From the NCBI GenBank assembly GCA_002781745.1, contig PFFW01000133.1, positions 1-64,000 of the forward strand: DNA of 64,000 nt. The letters run 5' to 3'. Positions 6,313-43,255 of the stretch are shown piece after piece. The notes beneath the pieces are model-generated. The model worked only from the letters and a program-made list of their open reading frames with translations, was not told the origin of the DNA and did not search any database. This DNA is from Rhodospirillales bacterium CG15_BIG_FIL_POST_REV_8_21_14_020_66_15. GTDB taxonomy: Bacteria; Pseudomonadota; Alphaproteobacteria; Rhodospirillales; Casp-alpha2. Every line of letters starts with the position of its first letter. Position 1 is the stretch's first letter. Position numbers and translations under genes: made by a program.

Positions 6313-7707
6313 TCACCCGCCGTACAGGCGTGAACCGTCGACGCCGATGCGGCCGAGGATTTCCGCCAACTCATCCTTCAGGCGGGTCAGAGATTGCTCG
6401 TTCCGGGCTTCGCAGCGCGCGACGAGCGCCGGTTCGGTATTCGACGCGCGCAACAGCCACCAACCGCCGTCGGACTTGACGCGGACGCCGTCGATGTCGA
6501 TCACGTTGCCGTTCCTCGCGGCGACGATACCGGAGACCTCCTTGACGACCTCGAATTTCATCGCATCGTCGCAGGTCAAACGGATTTCAGGCGTGTTGGA
6601 CGTCTGCGGCAATTGATCGAAAAATTCAGACATCTCTATACCTTCCGCCTGCAGAGCCTCCAGGATACGAAGCGCCGCATACAACGCGTCGTCGAACCCG
6701 AACCACCTGTCCGCGAAGAAGATATGGCCGCTCATCTCGCCGGCAAGGATGGCCCCGGTTTCGCGCAGCCTCTGCTTCACCAGGGCGTGTCCGGTCTTGC
6801 ACATTTCCGCCGAACCGCCGGCCGCAGCGATCACGTCGAACAGCACGTCGCTCGACTTGACGTCCGCGATCACCTTGGCGCCGGGCATGCGGCGCAGGAT
6901 GGGCCGCGCCAGCAGGGCGAGATACTGGTCGGGCCAGACGATCCGGCCACGGCTGTCGACAATGCCCAACCGGTCGCCGTCGCCGTCAAACGCGAAGCCG
7001 ACGTCGCATTTCCGGGTGACGACGAGTTCCCGCAGCGCAAGAAGATTGTCGGGGTCGCTGGGATCGGGGTGATGAGCCGGAAAGGTTCCGTCCACGGTCG
7101 CGTTGATCGCCACGTGCTGTCCCGGCAGTCTGCCGAGAATGTCCTCGATGACCGCGCCGACGGCGCCATTTCCCGGATCCCAGGCGCAGCTGCGGGAGCC
7201 GAGTTCCTCTATCCGATCAAGCATGGCCTCGACGTAGGTTTCCCGCACGGGGCAGTAGATGATTGTTCCGGCGCCGTTTTCCTCCAGATCGCCGGATTCA
7301 AGCAGCCTGGACAGGCGTCGGATCGTCGACGCCTGGAAGACCTGCGTTCCCAGAACCAATTTGAACCCGTTGTAGCCGGGCGGATTATGGGATCCGGTCA
7401 CCATGACACCGCCCGAGACGTCCAGGCTGTGCGTCGCGAAATAGAGCATGGGCGTGGGACCGACCCCGATCGCGCAGGCGATTCCGCCCGAATCCTCGAT
7501 CCCGCAACACACCGCGTCCGCCAGGCTGGGCGAACTTTCCCGCCCGTCCCTGCCGACCGCGATGGATTTGCCGCCATCGCGGACGACCATGGTCGCCAGA
7601 CCGCGGCCCAGGGCGTAGGCATCCTCTTCGGTCAGCGTCTCGTTGACGACGCCGCGAATGTCGTTAGCGCGACAGATCGAAGGATGGAACCTGTGCGTAT
7701 ACGTCAT
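6313..7707 (-). CDS. manB: Phosphomannomutase/phosphoglucomutase
   Basis: A 464-aa alpha-D-phosphohexomutase of the AlgC/ManB type that interconverts mannose-6-P with mannose-1-P (and probably glucose-6-P with glucose-1-P). It supplies GDP-mannose for the exopolysaccharide locus at 17-39 kb. The phosphoserine loop TGSHNPP (Ser106), the metal loop DGDGDR (about residue 245), the sugar-binding GEMSGH and the phosphate-binding SNTEP near the C-terminus are all present, and the length is typical (about 460). It sits between the PRC-barrel-like gene and ppsA, about 50 bp from the end of the latter, so it may be read from the ppsA transcript. Confidence 0.93.
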   Translation of the reverse strand: MTYTHRFHPSICRANDIRGVVNETLTEEDAYALGRGLATMVVRDGGKSIAVGRDGRESSPSLADAVCCGIEDSGGIACAIGVGPTPMLYFATHSLDVSGGVMVTGSHNPPGYNGFKLVLGTQVFQASTIRRLSRLLESGDLEENGAGTIIYCPVRETYVEAMLDRIEELGSRSCAWDPGNGAVGAVIEDILGRLPGQHVAINATVDGTFPAHHPDPSDPDNLLALRELVVTRKCDVGFAFDGDGDRLGIVDSRGRIVWPDQYLALLARPILRRMPGAKVIADVKSSDVLFDVIAAAGGSAEMCKTGHALVKQRLRETGAILAGEMSGHIFFADRWFGFDDALYAALRILEALQAEGIEMSEFFDQLPQTSNTPEIRLTCDDAMKFEVVKEVSGIVAARNGNVIDIDGVRVKSDGGWWLLRASNTEPALVARCEARNEQSLTRLKDELAEILGRIGVDGSRLYGG

Positions 7708-7757
7708 CTGTCTGTCCTGTCCTCATCGGGATTGGAACCGATGGCTTAGGCAGTGGT

Positions 7758-10169
7758 TCAGATCGCCTTCCGGAACTCCCCAAACCGGGGCCGGATGCGT
7801 TCCGCCTCGAGCACCCGTCGCTTCACCTCGGGAAAGGCATGCGGCGCTGCCGAGATGGAATCGATCTCCGCGTCGATCAGGAAACTGGCGAATACCCCGT
7901 CGTCGCCGGCGCCTTCGCCGCAGATACCGACCTTCCGGCCGGCGAGATGCGCGCGTTCGATGACGTGCCTGATTGCCCATTGCACGGCCGGGTCCATCTC
8001 GTTGAAGGTGTTCTGAAGCCGTTCGGAATCCCGGTCTACTCCGAGGACAAGCTGGGTCAGGTCGTTGCTGCCGATGGAGAACCCGTCGAAAAGCGCCGCG
8101 AATTCGTCGATTCGGAAGACGTTCGACGGAACTTCGCACATCATCAGAATGTCGAGTTTCTCGGCGCCGCGCTTCAGACCCTGAAGCGCCATCCGATCCA
8201 GAGTCATTTCCGCCTCGCGCACCGTGCGGCAGAATGGCAGCATGACCTTGATGTTGTCGAACCCGTATTCGGATCGCGCCTTGCGCAACGCCGCGCATTC
8301 TAGGCGGAAGCCCTCGGCGTAGGCCGGGTCGATATACCGGCTTGCCCCGCGCCAGCCGATCATGGGGTTCTCTTCGGCCGGCTCGAACATCCGCCCGCCG
8401 AGCAACCCCGCGTACTCGTTGGTCTTGAAATCGCTGGTCCGCACGATCGCCGGATGGGGCCAGGCGACCGCCGCGATCGCCGCAAGACCTTCGGCAAGCC
8501 GGTCAATGAAGAATTCGGCCTTGTCGGCGTAGCCACTTGTCAGTTCGGCGATCTGCCGCGCCGCGTCCGCGTCTTCGAGCTGGTCGAAATGCGCCAATGC
8601 CAGCGGGTGGACCCTGATGTGGTTGGAAATGATGAACTCCATGCGGGCCAGGCCGACGCCGTCGGCCGGCAGCCGCCACCACTCGAACGCGGTTTCCGGG
8701 TTGGCCAGGTTCAGCATGACCTTGGTCCTGGTTTCCTCGATCGCGGAAACGTCGATCTCCCGCGACAGGATGTCCGCGGCGCCTTCGTAAACGAACCCGT
8801 TTCGGTCCGCCCCGGAAACGACGGTGACGATCGTGCCGTCGGCAACACACGACGTGCCGTCGCCGGTTCCGGTGACCGCCGGCAGCCCAAGTTCCCGGCT
8901 TACGATGGCGGCATGGGAGGTCCGCCCGCCATGGTCCGTGATGATCGCGCCGGCCTTGCGCATGATCGGCAACCAGTTGGGGTCGGTGTTCGCGGTGACG
9001 AGAATGTCGCCATCCCGGAAATCCCCGTCGTCTCCCGGGGAATACAGCCTGCGCGCCCGGCCTGTCGCGAAGCCGCTGCCGACGCCGACGCCCTTGGCCA
9101 GCAACGGCCCGTGTTCGCCGACTTGGAAGGTTCGAAGCCGACCGGAACCGGCGGACCTGCGATGGGCCGTTTCGGGACGCGCTTGGACGACGTACAACTC
9201 CTCCGTCTTGCCGTCCAACGCCCATTCGACGTCAACGGCCGTACCGAACAGATCCTCGATGCGGGCCACCCAATCGGCTAGCAGTTCCGCCTGATCGTCG
9301 GTCAGGCAATATCCCGCCTGTTCGGCCTCCGACGTCGGCACGCATACATGCTTGCGTCCGCGTTTTCCCGGATCATATGTCGTCTTCACGTGCTTCGCAC
9401 CGCGGTGACGCCGCAGAATCCGGCACGTCGCCGGGAACCGGTTCTTGTGCACCAGGAACTCGTCGGGCTCGACCATGCCCTGCACCACCGACTCGCCCGT
9501 CCCCCAAGCGCCCGACACAAGCACCGCATGGGGAAAGCCGCTTTCCGTGTCGATTGAAAACGCCACTCCGGCCGCGCCCATGTCGGCGCGGACCATTTCC
9601 TGGACGATCACGGCAACGCGGATGTCCCATTCGCCGTAACCGTTCTCCAGGCGATAGGCGATCGCCCGTTCGTTCAGGGCGGAGGCGTAGCATTTCCGGC
9701 AGGCGTCGAGCACGGCGTCAAGCCCCGTGACGAACAGAAAGGAATCGTATTGGCCGGCGAAACTGGCGTCCGGCAGATCTTCGGCCGTGGCGCTTGACCG
9801 GACGGCGACCAACGGCGCCGGTGTGCCGCAAGCGTCGGCCAAGTCCTCGTAGGCCCGGGCGATCTCCGTCTTCAAGTCGTCGGGAAACTCGGCGGAAAGG
9901 ATCTCGTCGCGCCGGCGCTCGCTCAGTCCCTCCGCCGTAACGTCGGCGTCCCAGGCGCCCGTTCCTGCGCCGGATGCCAAGCCGCCGGCCGTCATGAAAC
10001 GCTCGTAGCCGTCAGTATTGATCACGAACCCGTCAGGCACCTTGATGTTCTTGTCTTTCAGGGCGCGGATCAGGTCGCCAAGCGATGCCGCCTTGCCGCC
10101 GAACTGCTTGCGCGTGTCGGACGGAAGCGATGAAAGTTTGTGTGTGAACTGTAAGCCGACGTGTTTCAT
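7758..10169 (-). CDS. ppsA: Phosphoenolpyruvate synthase
   Basis: An 803-aa enzyme converting pyruvate and ATP to PEP, AMP and phosphate; the first committed step of gluconeogenesis from pyruvate. The N-terminal ATP-grasp domain opens with GGKAASLGDL and includes SSATAEDLPDASFAGQ. The swivelling phosphohistidine domain has GGRTSHAAIVSRELG with the catalytic His. The C-terminal PEP/pyruvate barrel shows MCEVPSN, GSNDLTQL and GICGEGAGD. The start at 10169 (MKHVGLQF) is preferred because AGAGGA lies upstream; the reading frame stays open for 60 further codons but without similarity. PEP is also the pyruvyl donor for the pyruvyl transferase at 33.9 kb. An 11-bp GTGA repeat lies about 165 bp upstream. 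Confidence 0.95.
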   Translation of the reverse strand: MKHVGLQFTHKLSSLPSDTRKQFGGKAASLGDLIRALKDKNIKVPDGFVINTDGYERFMTAGGLASGAGTGAWDADVTAEGLSERRRDEILSAEFPDDLKTEIARAYEDLADACGTPAPLVAVRSSATAEDLPDASFAGQYDSFLFVTGLDAVLDACRKCYASALNERAIAYRLENGYGEWDIRVAVIVQEMVRADMGAAGVAFSIDTESGFPHAVLVSGAWGTGESVVQGMVEPDEFLVHKNRFPATCRILRRHRGAKHVKTTYDPGKRGRKHVCVPTSEAEQAGYCLTDDQAELLADWVARIEDLFGTAVDVEWALDGKTEELYVVQARPETAHRRSAGSGRLRTFQVGEHGPLLAKGVGVGSGFATGRARRLYSPGDDGDFRDGDILVTANTDPNWLPIMRKAGAIITDHGGRTSHAAIVSRELGLPAVTGTGDGTSCVADGTIVTVVSGADRNGFVYEGAADILSREIDVSAIEETRTKVMLNLANPETAFEWWRLPADGVGLARMEFIISNHIRVHPLALAHFDQLEDADAARQIAELTSGYADKAEFFIDRLAEGLAAIAAVAWPHPAIVRTSDFKTNEYAGLLGGRMFEPAEENPMIGWRGASRYIDPAYAEGFRLECAALRKARSEYGFDNIKVMLPFCRTVREAEMTLDRMALQGLKRGAEKLDILMMCEVPSNVFRIDEFAALFDGFSIGSNDLTQLVLGVDRDSERLQNTFNEMDPAVQWAIRHVIERAHLAGRKVGICGEGAGDDGVFASFLIDAEIDSISAAPHAFPEVKRRVLEAERIRPRFGEFRKAI

Positions 10170-38702: not shown

Positions 38703-39022
38703 GGACCCGTGCCTCCGACCAGTGTGGCTTGTGCGTTCGTGACGGCCGACAGACCGGAAAAGCGGACCCGACGCATGCCGTCGATCTACGCCGACAGCCC
38801 GATTGAATACGCCGCTCGTGCCGCGCACTAGTGACCTTCCTGTGACCGCCTTCCCGTTGTCCGGGCAATCGCGAGGGCCCGGAAATGCACCGATTCACGC
38901 CACGACCCACAGGTCTGACACAGGCCATCACAGCTTGATTACTGTCCTTGCCCGCGGAAATTCCATTCAATGGGCGGCGTTGGAACTTCACTTTGCCGAT
39001 CGGTTGGCAGAAAGGAGGAAAT
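38703..39022. other. 320-bp divergent promoter region, gmd versus small peptide gene
   Basis: No gene. It contains the GTGA direct repeat at 38831-38848 and, between 38895 and 38931, a run of TCAC/CCAC/ACAC/TCAC elements spaced 10-12 bp apart in the opposite orientation, nearer the rightward peptide gene. A near-consensus ribosome site ends it (AAAGGAGGAA at 39011). Confidence 0.6.
38831..38848 (+). promoter_or_regulatory. GTGA-type 11-bp direct repeat between gmd and the peptide gene
   Basis: GTGACCTTCCTGTGACCG: half-sites start at 38831 and 38842. The second half (CTGTGACCG) is identical to the copies at 41876 and 12312. It sits about 130 bp upstream of gmd and 175 bp upstream of the small peptide gene. 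Confidence 0.55.
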
Positions 39023-39277
39023 ATGCCTGAACATGGCGACATGGACCCGGCGACCGGTGTTACGGACCGTCGGGAATTCCTAACCAAGTGGGGCAAGTTC
39101 GTCGCCATCACGCCACCTGCCGTCACGTTGATGCTGACGGGAGCCTCACGAGGTGTCGTCGCGGCGTCCTCGGGGTTCCGGCATCGCCATCGGCGCGGAC
39201 GGGGGCACAGTAGTCATCGCGGTAACGGATTTGGCCATCACCATTTCCGTCACGACGGGTCTGACCGAGAATCCTAA
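39023..39277 (+). CDS. 84-aa twin-arginine-like, His/Gly-rich peptide
   Basis: A small protein I cannot assign to a named family. An excellent ribosome site (AAAGGAGG) is 5-6 nt before the ATG, and a textbook terminator follows, so it is very likely expressed as a single-gene transcript. The N-terminus has DRREFLTKWGKF, a twin-arginine-like motif, then a hydrophobic stretch VAITPPAVTLMLTGAS and an AxA-like VVAAS. The last 35 residues are dominated by His, Arg and Gly (FRHRHRRGRGHSSHRG) and end in GSDRES, with a C-terminal Ser. It converges with the nucleotidyltransferase of the PqqD-HprK cassette. A leader-bearing substrate of that cassette is my hypothesis; a secreted metal-binding peptide is the alternative. 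Confidence 0.75.
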   Translation: MPEHGDMDPATGVTDRREFLTKWGKFVAITPPAVTLMLTGASRGVVAASSGFRHRHRRGRGHSSHRGNGFGHHHFRHDGSDRES

Positions 39278-39376
39278 ACCGGTGATCCCAACAAGCGTCA
39301 CCGGGCGGGGCGCCCACCACCACTGCCTTCCCTCCTACAACCGCCCACCCTTCAAAGCCCACTCATCGCAAACGAT

Positions 39377-39410
39377 CCGGCCCGGGATAAACCCCGGGCC
39401 GGCTTTTTGC
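39377..39410 (+). terminator. Intrinsic terminator of the small peptide gene
   Basis: CCGGCCCGGG (39377-39386) pairs with CCCGGGCCGG (39393-39402) around the loop ATAAAC, then CTTTTTGC. A classic rho-independent terminator, 100 bp after the peptide stop codon; it may also insulate against the convergent nucleotidyltransferase transcript. Confidence 0.85.
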
Positions 39411-39452
39411 TTTCGCATGGGGATGTGAAGTTAAGGTCTCCACCGGACGGGA

Positions 39453-40622
39453 CTATTCGAAACGGAAAATCTGCTCCACCACTTGGCTTGCGGATTTCTT
39501 GTGCAGGAACTGTGCCGCGTGACGCAGCCTTTTGACGACCGTCGGTCCGGACCGACCGTAGAGCGCGCACATTCGGTGCCAGGCGAAGCCGCGGCGGAGA
39601 TTGCCCAGCGGAACCATCAATCGGCCGACCTTGGGAACCTGGAGGTGCAGCAGGACCAGCCGGGAATGCTGCATGGCCCCGCGCCGCGGCATGACGTTCA
39701 GCGGCCAAGCCATTCCGAACAGTTCCCCGGCCAGCAGAAGATATGAATGCAGCGGGTCGTCAAGGCGGTTGGCCGCCATCACGTCCGCGATCGCCTGCCA
39801 GTCGATGGCGCGGGCGAAACGCCCGCCGAGGTCGCCGAAGTCATGAAGCTGGTTCAGCCGGACCTGGCCCCGGTAGTACTGGGCGTGATGATGGATCTGG
39901 GCATGCAGCAGGTGATGGAGGATCCTGTCGGTGGGCCGGGGGACGCGGATCTCCCCATTGCCATTGCCGGCCGAGAGCGATACCGCCCGCGCCCGCACCC
40001 TGGCCGCAGGCAGGATATAGGGCGCGTCGATGAGTTCCGCATGCAGATCAACGGCGCCAGCGGCGCCGTCGCGTGCGAATTCGGCGATCGCGTGATGACC
40101 TGGCGCAAAGCGGGTCAGGACCTCGTACCCGAGGGCGCACAGGACCCGCGCCGCCCGGGCGCGTTCCCCGGAAGGCACGAGGACGTCGATGTCCCGCATC
40201 ATGCGGGCGTCGGCGGCCGGGGTGCGTCGCTCGAACAACGCGGAGGCGCCCTTCAGGAACACGACTTCGAGCCCGGCCTTGCCGAAAGCGTCGGCGATTT
40301 CCAGGCATTGGCCGCGAAGGCTCGCGTTGCGTCGCGCGTTGAGCGTATGGAGAGATTCAAGATACGTTCGAACGTCTCCGGGCAAGATGTGCGCCCGCCC
40401 TACGGCCGCGAACTTCCCGAACAGGGTGGGGGCCAGCAGATGCTCGTTGGCCAGCGCGAGGACCCCCATCCAGTCCAGGCCGGCAAGTTCCTGCCTGTCC
40501 GCCAAGCCCGCGTTCTTCAGAAGTCCGGACAGTTCCGCCAGGGCCGCCGCCCGCCTTATGCGTCCAGAAAGCTCAGTAATCTGACTGCCTCCGTCAACGA
40601 CGACACGCGCAGCGAATAACAC
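39453..40622 (-). CDS. Nucleotidyltransferase-family protein (NTP_transf_5-like)
   Basis: About 389 aa. The core motif EVVFLKGASALFE ... MMRDIDVLVP matches the uncharacterised nucleotidyltransferase family whose members accompany HprK-like kinases, including in phosphorylated lasso-peptide clusters. The Asp pair of DIDVLV would bind the metal. The C-terminal half is helical, with HHLLHAQIHHHAQYY. The start is uncertain: no ATG fits, and I chose a GTG at 40622, which overlaps the kinase gene by 67 bp; similarity begins at about residue 20. The frame runs open to 41132 but antisense to nothing meaningful. It is the second gene of a two-gene operon with the PqqD-HprK gene. Confidence 0.75.
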   Translation of the reverse strand: MLFAARVVVDGGSQITELSGRIRRAAALAELSGLLKNAGLADRQELAGLDWMGVLALANEHLLAPTLFGKFAAVGRAHILPGDVRTYLESLHTLNARRNASLRGQCLEIADAFGKAGLEVVFLKGASALFERRTPAADARMMRDIDVLVPSGERARAARVLCALGYEVLTRFAPGHHAIAEFARDGAAGAVDLHAELIDAPYILPAARVRARAVSLSAGNGNGEIRVPRPTDRILHHLLHAQIHHHAQYYRGQVRLNQLHDFGDLGGRFARAIDWQAIADVMAANRLDDPLHSYLLLAGELFGMAWPLNVMPRRGAMQHSRLVLLHLQVPKVGRLMVPLGNLRRGFAWHRMCALYGRSGPTVVKRLRHAAQFLHKKSASQVVEQIFRFE

Positions 40623-41773
40623 GGCCGGGACATGACCCAGCCGATCAAACCCTCGACTTCCGCCTCGTTCAGGCCGTCGCCCAATTGTTCGAAACACGTC
40701 AAAAGCCGGTCGAAAACGCCGATGCCGGAGATCGGCAGCAGCTCGGTCGGCCCATCGGCGTCGAACGTTGGAAAGACGATCCATCCGACGTCGGCGCCGA
40801 CGTCGCCATGCGCAAGATTGACAGTCGGCGGAGTCACATATTTCACCCGGTGATGATCTGGCCGGGCATGGACGGCAAGCCGGCGAACTTCGGGGAATCG
40901 GGTTGCCAGAAGTTCCCAGCTGTTCTCCTTCAGGCAGATGCCGCAGGGCACGGGCCGGACGGCGAAGGACTCGCGGCAGATCGTCACGACGTCGTCTCCC
41001 AGAAGGATGAATCCTTCCGCCGCCAACCCGGCCGCCAGCGTGCTTTTTCCGACGCCGGACAGCCCCGGCAGCAGGATGCATTTGTCCCCACGGATGGCCG
41101 CGGCGGCGTGCAGAGCCGCAAGATCCCGGCAATCCTCCAAGGCGCGGTCAATGACGCAGGCCCGCACCATGGCTACCGCGTGTGCCTCGTCGGTACAGCA
41201 TTCGATGATGTCGTCGTATTCGGACAGCACGGCGGAACCGCAGACGTGGCGGACGTCGAATGATGCGCCGACCGCATCCGGCGGACCGTCGTGGCGAAGG
41301 TGGCCGAGCGTTTCGTCCACGTCGCGGGCCAGACCGCCGCGTTCGAAGCGGATGGAAAACACCGTGTCGAGCATGCGATAGGAACGGGTTTCGGCCGTCG
41401 CCATGGGCTGCAGGACCGCGCGACGGATGGCCGTGTCGTGGATGTCGTTGGCTGGCAGCACATCGGCGGGATCAGGCGCCGGCCCCAAGTCGAACGTTCT
41501 CACGTCTGATCGACGTTCACGGCGCCATTGCCGCAGGGTCTGCGCGACGTAGGTGCGCGCCGTCGTCAGGTCGAGCCCGAATCGCTCCGTCATTCCGTCG
41601 GCGACGCTGGCCGGCGGGAACTTCTGCTCGAGACCGCACCACACGGCCGCCGCCGTCGCGTTGGCCGTGAACAGAGCCTGCCGGTCGCGTTCGAACAGAA
41701 CTGCGCCGTCGTTCACAAGGTGCACCCGGACATCTTCGCCGGGCAACATCAACCTGCCGTTCAATTGCCGCAT
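40556..41773 (-). CDS. PqqD domain fused to an HprK-like serine kinase
   Basis: A 405-aa protein with two recognisable parts. Residues about 12-85 form a PqqD/RRE-like peptide-binding domain (DGAVLFERDRQALFTANATA ... YVAQTLRQW). Residues about 130-405 form an HPr-kinase-like P-loop domain with Walker A GLSGVGKST (237-245), the following LLGDDVV and a C-terminal helical part; the HprK signature loop of true HPr kinases is not obvious. In RiPP pathways PqqD domains hold leader peptides, and HprK homologues phosphorylate a C-terminal Ser (established for paeninodin-type lasso peptides). The fusion implies one chain that binds and phosphorylates a peptide. The ATG at 41773 has GGAG upstream; a GTGA operator array lies at 41867-41956. 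Confidence 0.82.
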   Translation of the reverse strand: MRQLNGRLMLPGEDVRVHLVNDGAVLFERDRQALFTANATAAAVWCGLEQKFPPASVADGMTERFGLDLTTARTYVAQTLRQWRRERRSDVRTFDLGPAPDPADVLPANDIHDTAIRRAVLQPMATAETRSYRMLDTVFSIRFERGGLARDVDETLGHLRHDGPPDAVGASFDVRHVCGSAVLSEYDDIIECCTDEAHAVAMVRACVIDRALEDCRDLAALHAAAAIRGDKCILLPGLSGVGKSTLAAGLAAEGFILLGDDVVTICRESFAVRPVPCGICLKENSWELLATRFPEVRRLAVHARPDHHRVKYVTPPTVNLAHGDVGADVGWIVFPTFDADGPTELLPISGIGVFDRLLTCFEQLGDGLNEAEVEGLIGWVMSRPCYSLRVSSLTEAVRLLSFLDA

Positions 41774-41866
41774 CGCCTTCGCTCCGCCCAGCGGTTTCCG
41801 CGGCAAGCGATGCCGCGCGCCGACCATCGATCCGATCAATCTAACCGCAGAGGCCAAGCCGAAGAT

Positions 41867-41884
41867 GTGAGGATTCTGTGACCG
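41867..41884 (+). promoter_or_regulatory. GTGA-type 11-bp direct repeat upstream of the fusion kinase
   Basis: GTGAGGATTCTGTGACCG: half-sites start at 41867 and 41878, 94-105 bp upstream of the kinase start at 41773. It is almost identical to the copy upstream of the ECF sigma gene. Confidence 0.6.
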
Positions 41885-41918
41885 CGCTGCCCGCATTCGG
41901 TCGGCCGTGCCGCCTTTC

Positions 41919-41957
41919 TGTGACATTCCGTCACCGTTTGGTCACGCCGATCTCACA
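41919..41957. promoter_or_regulatory. Palindrome plus 11-bp-phased TCAC array
   Basis: TGTGAC starts at 41919. GTGAC-ATTCC-GTCAC (41920-41934) is a perfect palindrome. TCAC then recurs at 41931, 41942 and 41953, exactly 11 bp apart and pointing toward the rightward PP-loop gene at 42044. Together with the repeat at 41867 it gives each divergent gene its own correctly oriented array. Confidence 0.6.
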
Positions 41958-42043
41958 GGGTTTCAATTAGCGTGGCGGACAGGGAATTAGCCTTCGATCT
42001 ATCGCCTCTCTCCTTCCATTGCCCAGCAGAGGAAAGGACAGGT

Positions 42044-43255
42044 ATGCGGATATTCGACATCAAAAGCGCCTGGGTAAACGGCACCGCGCAGATTCGCGCG
42101 CAAGTCCTTCCCGATTCCTGCCGCGAGCCCCTCGAACTCTGGTACCATTTCGAAGGTCTCGACGGTCCGCTGGAAACCGACGCCGATCCTTTCGTCGCCG
42201 CGATGCTGCCGTCATGCATGCTGGACAACGAGCCCTGCATCGTCGACGGCCACGTCTCCAAAACGTTCTTCGATAACCTTCCGTGGGCCCAGAACGTGTT
42301 GGACGATTGGTATCCCTTTCTCAAGCCGGTCACCGTGGAAGCGCGCCGCCATCACATTCCCCGCTTCGACGCGGACGCGGCCGGCGTCGGCTGCTGTTTC
42401 TCCGGCGATGTCGACTCCTGGTATTCGTTCCTCGAAAACCGACCGCAGGTAACCCATCTGCTGACGGTGCGCGGGTTCGACATCGGGCTCGACAATGACA
42501 CCTTGTGGCGGTCGACCCGGGCCAGCGTCGGGGCGGTCGCCCGGGCCACGGGCAAGCGGCTGATTACGTGCGAAACCAACCTTCGGCATATCGCCGACCG
42601 TGGCCGAGCGCATTGGAGCCCCGCCTACGACGGGGACTTCTGGGGGATGTGCCTGCACGGGGCTGCCCTGGCGTCATGTGCGCAGCCGCTGCGCAACACC
42701 ATCGGCAGGATCATCGTCCCCTCAACCCATTCGTTCCACCAGCTCAAGCCCTGGGGCTCGTCGCCGCGCCTGGACGGATTCTGGTCCAACGACGGGCTGG
42801 ACGTGATCCACGACGGGTGCGAGGCCGACCGCCTGGAGAAAATCCGCAGGATCGCGGCCAACGATCTGGCGCTCCGGTCCCTCAGGGTATGTCACAACGA
42901 TACGGGCGAGGCCAACTGCGGCAGGTGCGAGAAATGCGTGCGCACGATGCTGGAGCTTTATGTCTGCGGCGCCCTGGGCCGCGCGGCCGCATTCCGCAAC
43001 CACGATCCGTTCCGCAAGCTGCAGCGCCTTGAAGTTCCCGAGCACCTGCTGCCCCACTATCAAGCGCTTCTCAGGGCAGCCTACCGCATCGGCGCGCCGG
43101 ACGTCGTTCGATCCTTGGAAACTGTCATGGGAATGCGGTTCTCCGTGGAGCGGACGCTGGCAATGGCGGTCCGCCGGGCGCGCCGGGCGCAGGCCGCCTA
43201 TCGGCAGTCCTCGCGGGTCGCCGACACCCACGGAAAACGGTCGTTTGTCGCCTGA
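42044..43255 (+). CDS. QueC-like PP-loop ATPase, divergent from the fusion kinase
   Basis: A 403-aa protein. The pyrophosphatase loop is CCFSGDVDSW (residues 117-126), an SGGxDS variant with Asp for the second Gly. Later, C283-x8-C292-x2-C295-x2-C298 (in CHNDTGEANCGRCEKC) is exactly the zinc-cysteine spacing of QueC, followed by RTMLEL. PP-loop enzymes activate a carboxylate or amide as an adenylate and then add nitrogen or sulfur. Relatives with CGRCEKCxRT occur in natural-product and polysaccharide loci but are not characterised to my knowledge. The ATG at 42044 has AGAGGAAAGG upstream; a GTG at 41972 lies close to the operator array and is unlikely. The 3' end overlaps the convergent opgH by 58 bp. 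Confidence 0.78.
   Translation: MRIFDIKSAWVNGTAQIRAQVLPDSCREPLELWYHFEGLDGPLETDADPFVAAMLPSCMLDNEPCIVDGHVSKTFFDNLPWAQNVLDDWYPFLKPVTVEARRHHIPRFDADAAGVGCCFSGDVDSWYSFLENRPQVTHLLTVRGFDIGLDNDTLWRSTRASVGAVARATGKRLITCETNLRHIADRGRAHWSPAYDGDFWGMCLHGAALASCAQPLRNTIGRIIVPSTHSFHQLKPWGSSPRLDGFWSNDGLDVIHDGCEADRLEKIRRIAANDLALRSLRVCHNDTGEANCGRCEKCVRTMLELYVCGALGRAAAFRNHDPFRKLQRLEVPEHLLPHYQALLRAAYRIGAPDVVRSLETVMGMRFSVERTLAMAVRRARRAQAAYRQSSRVADTHGKRSFVA

Follow-up and report, generated by a model that had tools for sequence, protein, structure and literature searches.

A PqqD-HprK kinase cassette and its proposed substrates, small peptides with a twin-arginine-like leader

Does a divergent HprK-like kinase of a Rhodospirillales bacterium act on the small peptide encoded next to it? 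The question arises in a window of 64,000 nucleotides (the whole stretch of DNA analysed; contig PFFW01000133.1, positions 1 to 64,000), where four genes lie close together: an 84-residue peptide, an NTP_transf_5 protein, a fusion of a PqqD domain with an HprK-like kinase, and a PP-loop-like protein. A sequence-only reading of the locus had proposed that the four form a peptide-tailoring cassette, different from a lasso-peptide pathway, that binds, phosphorylates and further modifies a peptide, perhaps the 84-residue one, whose C-terminal Ser was suggestive as an acceptor. The observation itself is correct, as all four genes are where they had been placed. Its interpretation is partly supported: comparison favours a peptide-tailoring cassette with the 84-residue peptide as the substrate, but the PP-loop protein as a member and the C-terminal Ser as the acceptor are not supported.

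The peptide gene (39023-39277, forward strand) is preceded by a strong Shine-Dalgarno sequence (AAGGAGG, 39012-39018) and followed by a terminator-like structure at 39377-39402 (forward strand), a 10-bp stem of GC pairs only with T5 behind it. The terminator rests on the quality of this one stem, since the scanner's total of 2 sites is not above its shuffle mean of 3.0. On the reverse strand, the NTP_transf_5 gene (39453-40628) matches PF14907 with 135 bits against a cut-off of 31.2; its frame overlaps the end of the kinase gene, and its start codon is not resolved by the sequence. The fusion kinase (40556-41773, reverse strand) has 405 residues from this ATG, although a longer start at 41926 is possible. 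Its PqqD domain, of the RRE type (41516-41704, reverse strand; residues 49-111 of a 430-residue reading), scores 28.3 bits against PF05402, with a cut-off of 23.4. The kinase domain (40571-41122, reverse strand; residues 243-426 of the same reading) stays below the curated cut-offs, with 24.2 bits of 33.3 for Hpr_kinase_C and 86 bits of 200 for its best family hit, HprK-related kinase A (NCBIfam TIGR04352), and is therefore described as a divergent HprK relative. A profile of the family matches lasso RREs (TbiB1/TfuB1) in its PqqD part and HPr kinases in its kinase part among PDB sequences, and the catalytic His, the P-loop Lys and the Asp-Asp pair are kept in 5 of 5 aligned rows.

What the sequence-only reading missed is that the peptide has homologues and a twin-arginine-like leader. 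It belongs to a family absent from Pfam and essentially from NCBIfam, with a conserved leader (RRxFLxxCGKFAxxTPPxxxLML) and variable, His/Gly- or basic-rich mature parts. In the window's peptide the leader region (39065-39172, forward strand) runs from D15-R16-R17 to the conserved Ser (S50; neighbour S49), with TPP at residues 30-32. A Ser just after an AxA-like site is present in 32 of 32 core-family peptides, whereas only 2 of the 32 end in Ser and 16 end in Arg. The leader has the RRxFL motif, hydrophobic stretch and AxA-like site of a twin-arginine signal peptide, but that it functions in Tat export is inferred from the motif: curated Tat models barely see it, with TIGR01409 found in 1 of 14 members at E 0.22 and no Pfam Tat model matching. 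A TatC is encoded in the genome. The members were found with a Shine-Dalgarno-based listing and HMMs, as a regular expression for RR leaders missed the window's own peptide. Some alignment rows (for example those of loci L117 and L120 in the alignment A4) do not begin at the true start codon, which does not affect the leader columns.

Is the peptide consistently found with the same enzymes? Co-conservation had been named beforehand as the test of the cassette, and it comes out in favour of three of the four genes: peptide, kinase and NTP_transf_5. The peptide family is found beside the same kinase type in 29 other cassettes, the 9 plasmid loci included. In 9 of 9 plasmid loci fetched by kinase similarity, including S. 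meliloti pSymB and R. tropici CIAT 899, both partners sit next to the kinase; the queries were the kinases of two peptide-linked cassettes, and 9 of the 26-27 records were taken, one per organism. In a draw across the phylum, 9 of 9 other peptide-bearing genomes carry the kinase, within about 1.2 kb of the peptide in 7, and all 7 linked loci hold NTP_transf_5. Among 138 loci selected by kinase or NTP_transf_5, 8 of 8 leader hits at E<0.2 (in 6 loci) lie within 600 bp of a cassette gene, against an expectation of 19% (p=1.8e-6). At the class level, 7 of 10 peptide genomes have a fusion kinase against 3 of 374 others, with the window's genome dropped; this contrast is partly circular, because the kinase model (A3) was built from peptide-linked loci, and it leaves out 6 of the 17 peptide genomes, those with E above 1e-5, of which 4 had internal stops but one (G547) is cassette-linked (locus L128). 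A scan of genome contigs with a single pattern gave at least 80 loci, which are no census.

The association has its exceptions. Of 49 distinct peptides, 24 lie more than 1.5 kb from a cassette in the loci examined, and three genomes (G429, G437 and G607) have the peptide but no kinase of this branch at 1e-20. Only 6 of the 138 loci selected by kinase or NTP_transf_5 carry the peptide, so it belongs to one branch of these kinases. NTP_transf_5 is missing in 3 of 21 linked loci, and the PqqD domain is not recognised by the HMM used here in 3 of the 7 linked phylum loci and in 6 of the 9 plasmid loci.

The explanation that best fits these observations, with a probability of roughly 0.7, is a RiPP-type peptide-tailoring system of three genes. 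Of the general features of RiPP pathways, the locus shows a gene-encoded precursor with a conserved leader and a variable core, and an RRE-type domain with a modifying enzyme type beside the precursor. The PqqD (RRE) domain would bind the conserved leader; the HprK-like domain would phosphorylate the peptide, most likely at the conserved Ser just after the predicted signal-peptidase site (Ser50, or its neighbour Ser49); and the NTP_transf_5 protein would then add a nucleotide-derived or sugar group, probably on that phosphate. In this view the leader doubles as a twin-arginine export signal, so that the peptide would leave by the general Tat pathway and be cut by signal peptidase, which would explain why no dedicated exporter, whose absence the sequence-only reading had remarked on, and no leader peptidase were seen beside it. 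The identities of the genes, the peptide family, the co-conservation and the conserved sites are shown by the present comparison, whereas leader binding, phosphorylation of the peptide and its site, the second modification, export through Tat and the role of the product are inferred from sequence and by analogy.

The analogy is with known peptide kinases. HprK kinases together with NTP transferases act on peptides in paeninodin, pseudomycoidin and the linear polyphosphorylated peptides (LPPs). The LPPs of Bacillota (PMC13381572) share with the present system an HprK-like kinase, an RRE and an NTP transferase without lasso enzymes, an occurrence in polysaccharide loci, and a Ser near the start of the core (S3) that carries the phosphate. 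Here, however, the RRE is fused to the kinase instead of discrete, the hosts are Pseudomonadota, export is probably by Tat, and the leader is RRxFL...TPP, the LPP motif YxxPxVLxHQxIxFETxxS being absent by eye from the aligned peptides. No SpI-type peptidase or MsbA-like transporter was seen among the 21 of the window's proteins that were scanned with Pfam. The LPP counterpart of the NTP transferase, LppN, showed no activity in its heterologous host (PMC13381572), which counts against the explanation. The phosphorylated lasso peptides paeninodin (PadeK) and pseudomycoidin (PsmK, PsmN) (PMC9266682, and through it Zhu 2016 and Zyubko 2019) have the same kinase and nucleotidyltransferase types acting on one peptide, and a PqqD-like RRE, but the conserved Ser of the present family is at the N-terminal end of the predicted mature peptide and not at the C-terminus. 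Bufferins and other MNIO RiPPs (PMC12452194) similarly have a leader that is also an export signal, and an RRE-type partner; theirs is a Sec signal peptide instead of a twin-arginine-like one, and the window has a kinase in place of the MNIO. No published account of the present cassette was found in searches of an open-licence library.

Two other readings survive as unlikely alternatives, about equally. The kinase and NTP_transf_5 may act on a sugar or lipid intermediate of the neighbouring exopolysaccharide pathway, the peptide being an unrelated small exported protein that travels with them. The window's cassette does lie between polysaccharide genes and osmoregulated-glucan-type genes, and orphan peptides exist; however, the domain fused to the kinase is of the RRE type, and such domains bind peptides, while the pairing with the peptide persists in loci without polysaccharide genes in view (S. 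meliloti pSymB and locus L113). Alternatively, the peptide may be a leader-bound partner that regulates or localises the kinase, or a small exported metal- or matrix-binding protein whose modification is minor, the RRE binding it without making a defined product. The variable mature parts and the scattered orphan copies are consistent with this, but the strict Ser after the cleavage site and the constant NTP_transf_5 partner suggest a defined chemical step.

A four-gene pathway with the PP-loop protein as a further tailoring enzyme is very unlikely. The gene starts 270 bp from the kinase start, divergently, but it is absent from the other 29 cassettes. It occurs in 3 of 100 relatives, the window's genome included, and the other two copies lie in stretches of 18-19 kb without kinase, NTP_transf_5 or peptide. 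Its label rests on an SGDVDS-type motif and a CxxCxxC cluster read by eye; no Pfam or NCBIfam family exceeded its cut-off, no PDB sequence matched, and the AlphaFold2 model (mean pLDDT 57.6) was too poor to search with, so that the likeness to QueC that had been proposed is unproven. A paeninodin-type lasso pathway with distant or lost lasso enzymes is the least likely of all, as no PF13471 (lasso leader peptidase type) match is present in the genome, the [Y/W]xxPx[L/V/I] leader motif is absent by eye from the alignments, and the three-gene set recurs in the same reduced form, although this rejection does not rest on the cyclase family.

In the annotated records seen, such kinases are called ‘serine kinase’, ‘hypothetical protein’ or ‘ATP-binding protein’, and their partner ‘nucleotidyltransferase family protein’. 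They now gain a concrete candidate substrate family, a predicted acceptor residue and tractable hosts, the same set with related peptides occurring in other bacteria, including nodule-forming Sinorhizobium and Rhizobium (S. meliloti, R. tropici). On pSymB of S. meliloti Ak57 the set is UIJ95549-UIJ95551. A twin-arginine-like leader read by an RRE would be an unusual way to build and export a RiPP, and what NTP_transf_5 proteins do to a phospho-Ser, a question left by the work on pseudomycoidin and LPPs, becomes testable with this family. More speculatively, and with low probability, the cassette may be a phosphoglycosylation system for Tat-secreted peptides in Pseudomonadota: NTP_transf_5 would join a sugar to the phosphate placed by the fusion kinase on the Ser just after the cleavage site, giving phosphodiester-linked glycopeptides that leave through Tat and, where the genes sit in polysaccharide loci, become part of the exopolysaccharide matrix. 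One kinase may serve several scattered peptides of a genome in trans.

A link between these kinases and RiPP enzymes is also seen at one further locus (L046), where the same PqqD-HprK pair is fused to an MNIO RiPP enzyme domain, beside two RR-leader peptides.

The window is part of a 94-kb contig of a 3.85-Mb draft genome. To the left lies a polysaccharide locus comprising GDP-mannose enzymes, a Wzz-type protein, a sugar transferase, glycosyltransferases, and flippase-type and pyruvyl transferase genes; to the right are a family-2 glycosyltransferase and an MdoG gene. Between them are found the 84-aa peptide gene (+), then on the other strand the genes for NTP_transf_5 and a PqqD-HprK fusion, and then a PP-loop-like gene (+) at positions 42044-43255. 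The PP-loop-like protein matches no family over its cut-off, and its relatives, at 48-49% identity, are found in two genomes of one other genus, in unrelated surroundings.

The 84-aa peptide belongs to a family. The first sign of this was a 70-aa peptide encoded directly upstream of separate PqqD, HprK and NTP genes in another genome (locus L037 of genome G081), which can be aligned with the window peptide over its N-terminal half. An HMM built from four peptides matched 17 of 385 genomes of the class at E<=1e-3, the window genome included, 11 of them at E<=1e-5. The family has a leader, RRxFLxxCGKFAxxTPPxxxLML, followed by a small-residue site and then Ser, whereas the mature part varies and is often GNNGFGNGxxDGxPG or His/Gly-rich. 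Curated libraries do not hold the family: a Pfam search of 14 members gave one weak hit in 1 of 14, and NCBIfam gave weak hits, TIGR04117 (a radical SAM target family) in 4 of 14 at best E 0.014 and one hit at 1.5e-6 for one member (HxsA4). The window member is divergent, with Trp where 25 of 32 core peptides have Cys.

The peptide goes with the kinase and NTP_transf_5. Across all the loci collected, peptides lie beside cassette genes in 21 loci, the window included, and NTP_transf_5 is within 2.5 kb in 18 of 21. Of the three exceptions, locus L126 has its kinase and locus L209 its peptide cut by a contig end, while locus L128 has no such excuse. The arrangement seen in the window, with the peptide and NTP genes pointing at each other and the kinase behind, recurs in four of the collected loci (L113, L114, L115 and L130).

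Three comparisons did not start from the peptide. In the first, 140 loci were chosen by kinase or NTP_transf_5, of which 138 had a core gene at the cut-off. In these, 8 of 8 leader-HMM hits at E<0.2 fell within 600 bp of a cassette gene, where 19% of 27,300 ORFs lie (binomial p=1.8e-6), although the 8 hits come from 6 loci and so are not all independent, and the other 132 loci have none. The reversed-HMM control gave no hit below E 0.24. In the second, a draw of 398 genomes from the phylum gave 10 with the peptide, the window genome included. The 9 others, to which the kinase search of this draw was confined (the other 388 genomes being left out), all carry an HprK-type kinase of this branch at E<=5.8e-40, and the model covers the PqqD part in 7 of 9; in the class draw, 21 of 385 genomes had the kinase at 1e-20, 11 of them with the PqqD part. 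Kinase and peptide are within about 1.2 kb in 7 of the 9 phylum genomes and 52-62 kb apart in the remaining two, G673 and G1022. All 7 linked loci hold NTP_transf_5, and the PqqD HMM used here sees PqqD in 4 of the 7. G673 and G1022, together with G872 and G888 (loci L249-L256 cover G1022, G872 and G888), are genomes of one genus (g377) that carry 3 to 6 peptide matches each, scattered, and one kinase of this branch, a possible one-enzyme, many-substrates arrangement.

In the third comparison, tblastn with two kinases against plasmids matched 26 and 27 records. Nine were retrieved, one per organism, and 9 of 9 have the kinase, NTP_transf_5 and a leader-family peptide (leader HMM E 6e-6 to 5e-23), with the PqqD HMM matching in 3 of 9. 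They include Sinorhizobium meliloti Ak57 pSymB, in which the kinase is UIJ95549.1 (‘serine kinase’), the NTP_transf_5 protein is UIJ95550.1 (‘nucleotidyltransferase family protein’) and the peptide lies in the frame of UIJ95551.1 (‘hypothetical protein’), and Rhizobium tropici CIAT 899. Weak leader relatives beside such genes appear in a Hydrogenimonas (locus L133, E 0.01) and a deltaproteobacterium (locus L134, E 0.17).

Some facts count against the association. By a 1.5-kb rule, 24 of 49 distinct peptides are orphans in the stretches of sequence examined, and three peptide-bearing genomes (G429, G437 and G607) have no kinase of this branch at 1e-20. These facts fit substrates modified in trans or lost partners, but they also fit a looser link. 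In locus L124 (genome G394, contig C61), three tandem RR-leader peptides with Cys-rich cores are encoded at 7430-8488 with no kinase cassette near; the cassette of this genome, at locus L212, has a gene between NTP_transf_5 and the kinase that is GMC-oxidoreductase-like as judged by eye.

The family profile of the kinase matches the lasso RREs TbiB1 (E 2.2e-5) and TfuB1 with its PqqD part, and HPr kinases (E 0.0015 and weaker) with its kinase part. The His before the P-loop, the P-loop Lys and Asp-Asp are invariant in 5 of 5 aligned rows. The AlphaFold2 model of the window kinase, which has a mean pLDDT of 70.5 and is poor in the PqqD part, resembles PEP carboxykinases first (E 8e-8) and HPr kinases (E 9e-4), with low TM-scores. 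In locus L046 (genome G151, contig C477; 385-6975) a PqqD-HprK pair is fused to an MNIO domain (PF05114), giving a triple fusion of 785 aa, with two tandem RR-leader peptides ending in GCGCGG-type cores, an NTP_transf_5 frame and a radical SAM/SPASM gene, making this an unusual RiPP locus of its own.

In 32 of 32 core peptides (leader E<=1e-13; linked and orphan alike) a Ser follows the AxA-like site, as found by pattern in 30 and by eye in 2. It is the same in 8 of 9 plasmid peptides, and in that of Parasedimentitalea it is one residue earlier. In the window peptide the alignment puts this residue at Ser50 and the pattern at its neighbour, Ser49. In LPPs the phosphates sit on S3 of the core (PMC13381572), and the conserved Ser is therefore proposed as the acceptor. 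PsmN leads to hexose on phospho-Ser in pseudomycoidin, directly or through a host enzyme (PMC9266682), whereas LppN showed no activity in its test host (PMC13381572); NTP_transf_5 may act like PsmN here. While the position of the Ser and the company that the peptide keeps are read directly from the sequences, its phosphorylation and any second modification are inferred. Export by Tat is likewise inferred, from the motif and the presence of TatC, and the curated Tat model sees 1 of 14 members, weakly.

Peptides that go with an RRE, an HprK kinase and an NTP transferase are already known, in LPPs and the paeninodin type. The system considered here differs from these in the twin-arginine-like leader, the RRE-kinase fusion, the three-gene size and the hosts. 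The literature searches showed no report of this system, one set of results having been seen only in part, and one paper's main text does not mention Tat or kinases.

Other RR-leader products lie beside related enzymes. In two genomes (loci L038 and L039, 6040-6563) a different conserved RR-leader peptide of 66 aa, which the leader HMM does not see, is encoded directly upstream of a fusion kinase and NTP_transf_5. In four loci (L043, L045, L049 and L056) larger RR-signal proteins of about 200 aa are found beside HprK and NTP_transf_5 genes, with polysaccharide genes of the PEP-CTERM type, recognised by eye only, nearby.
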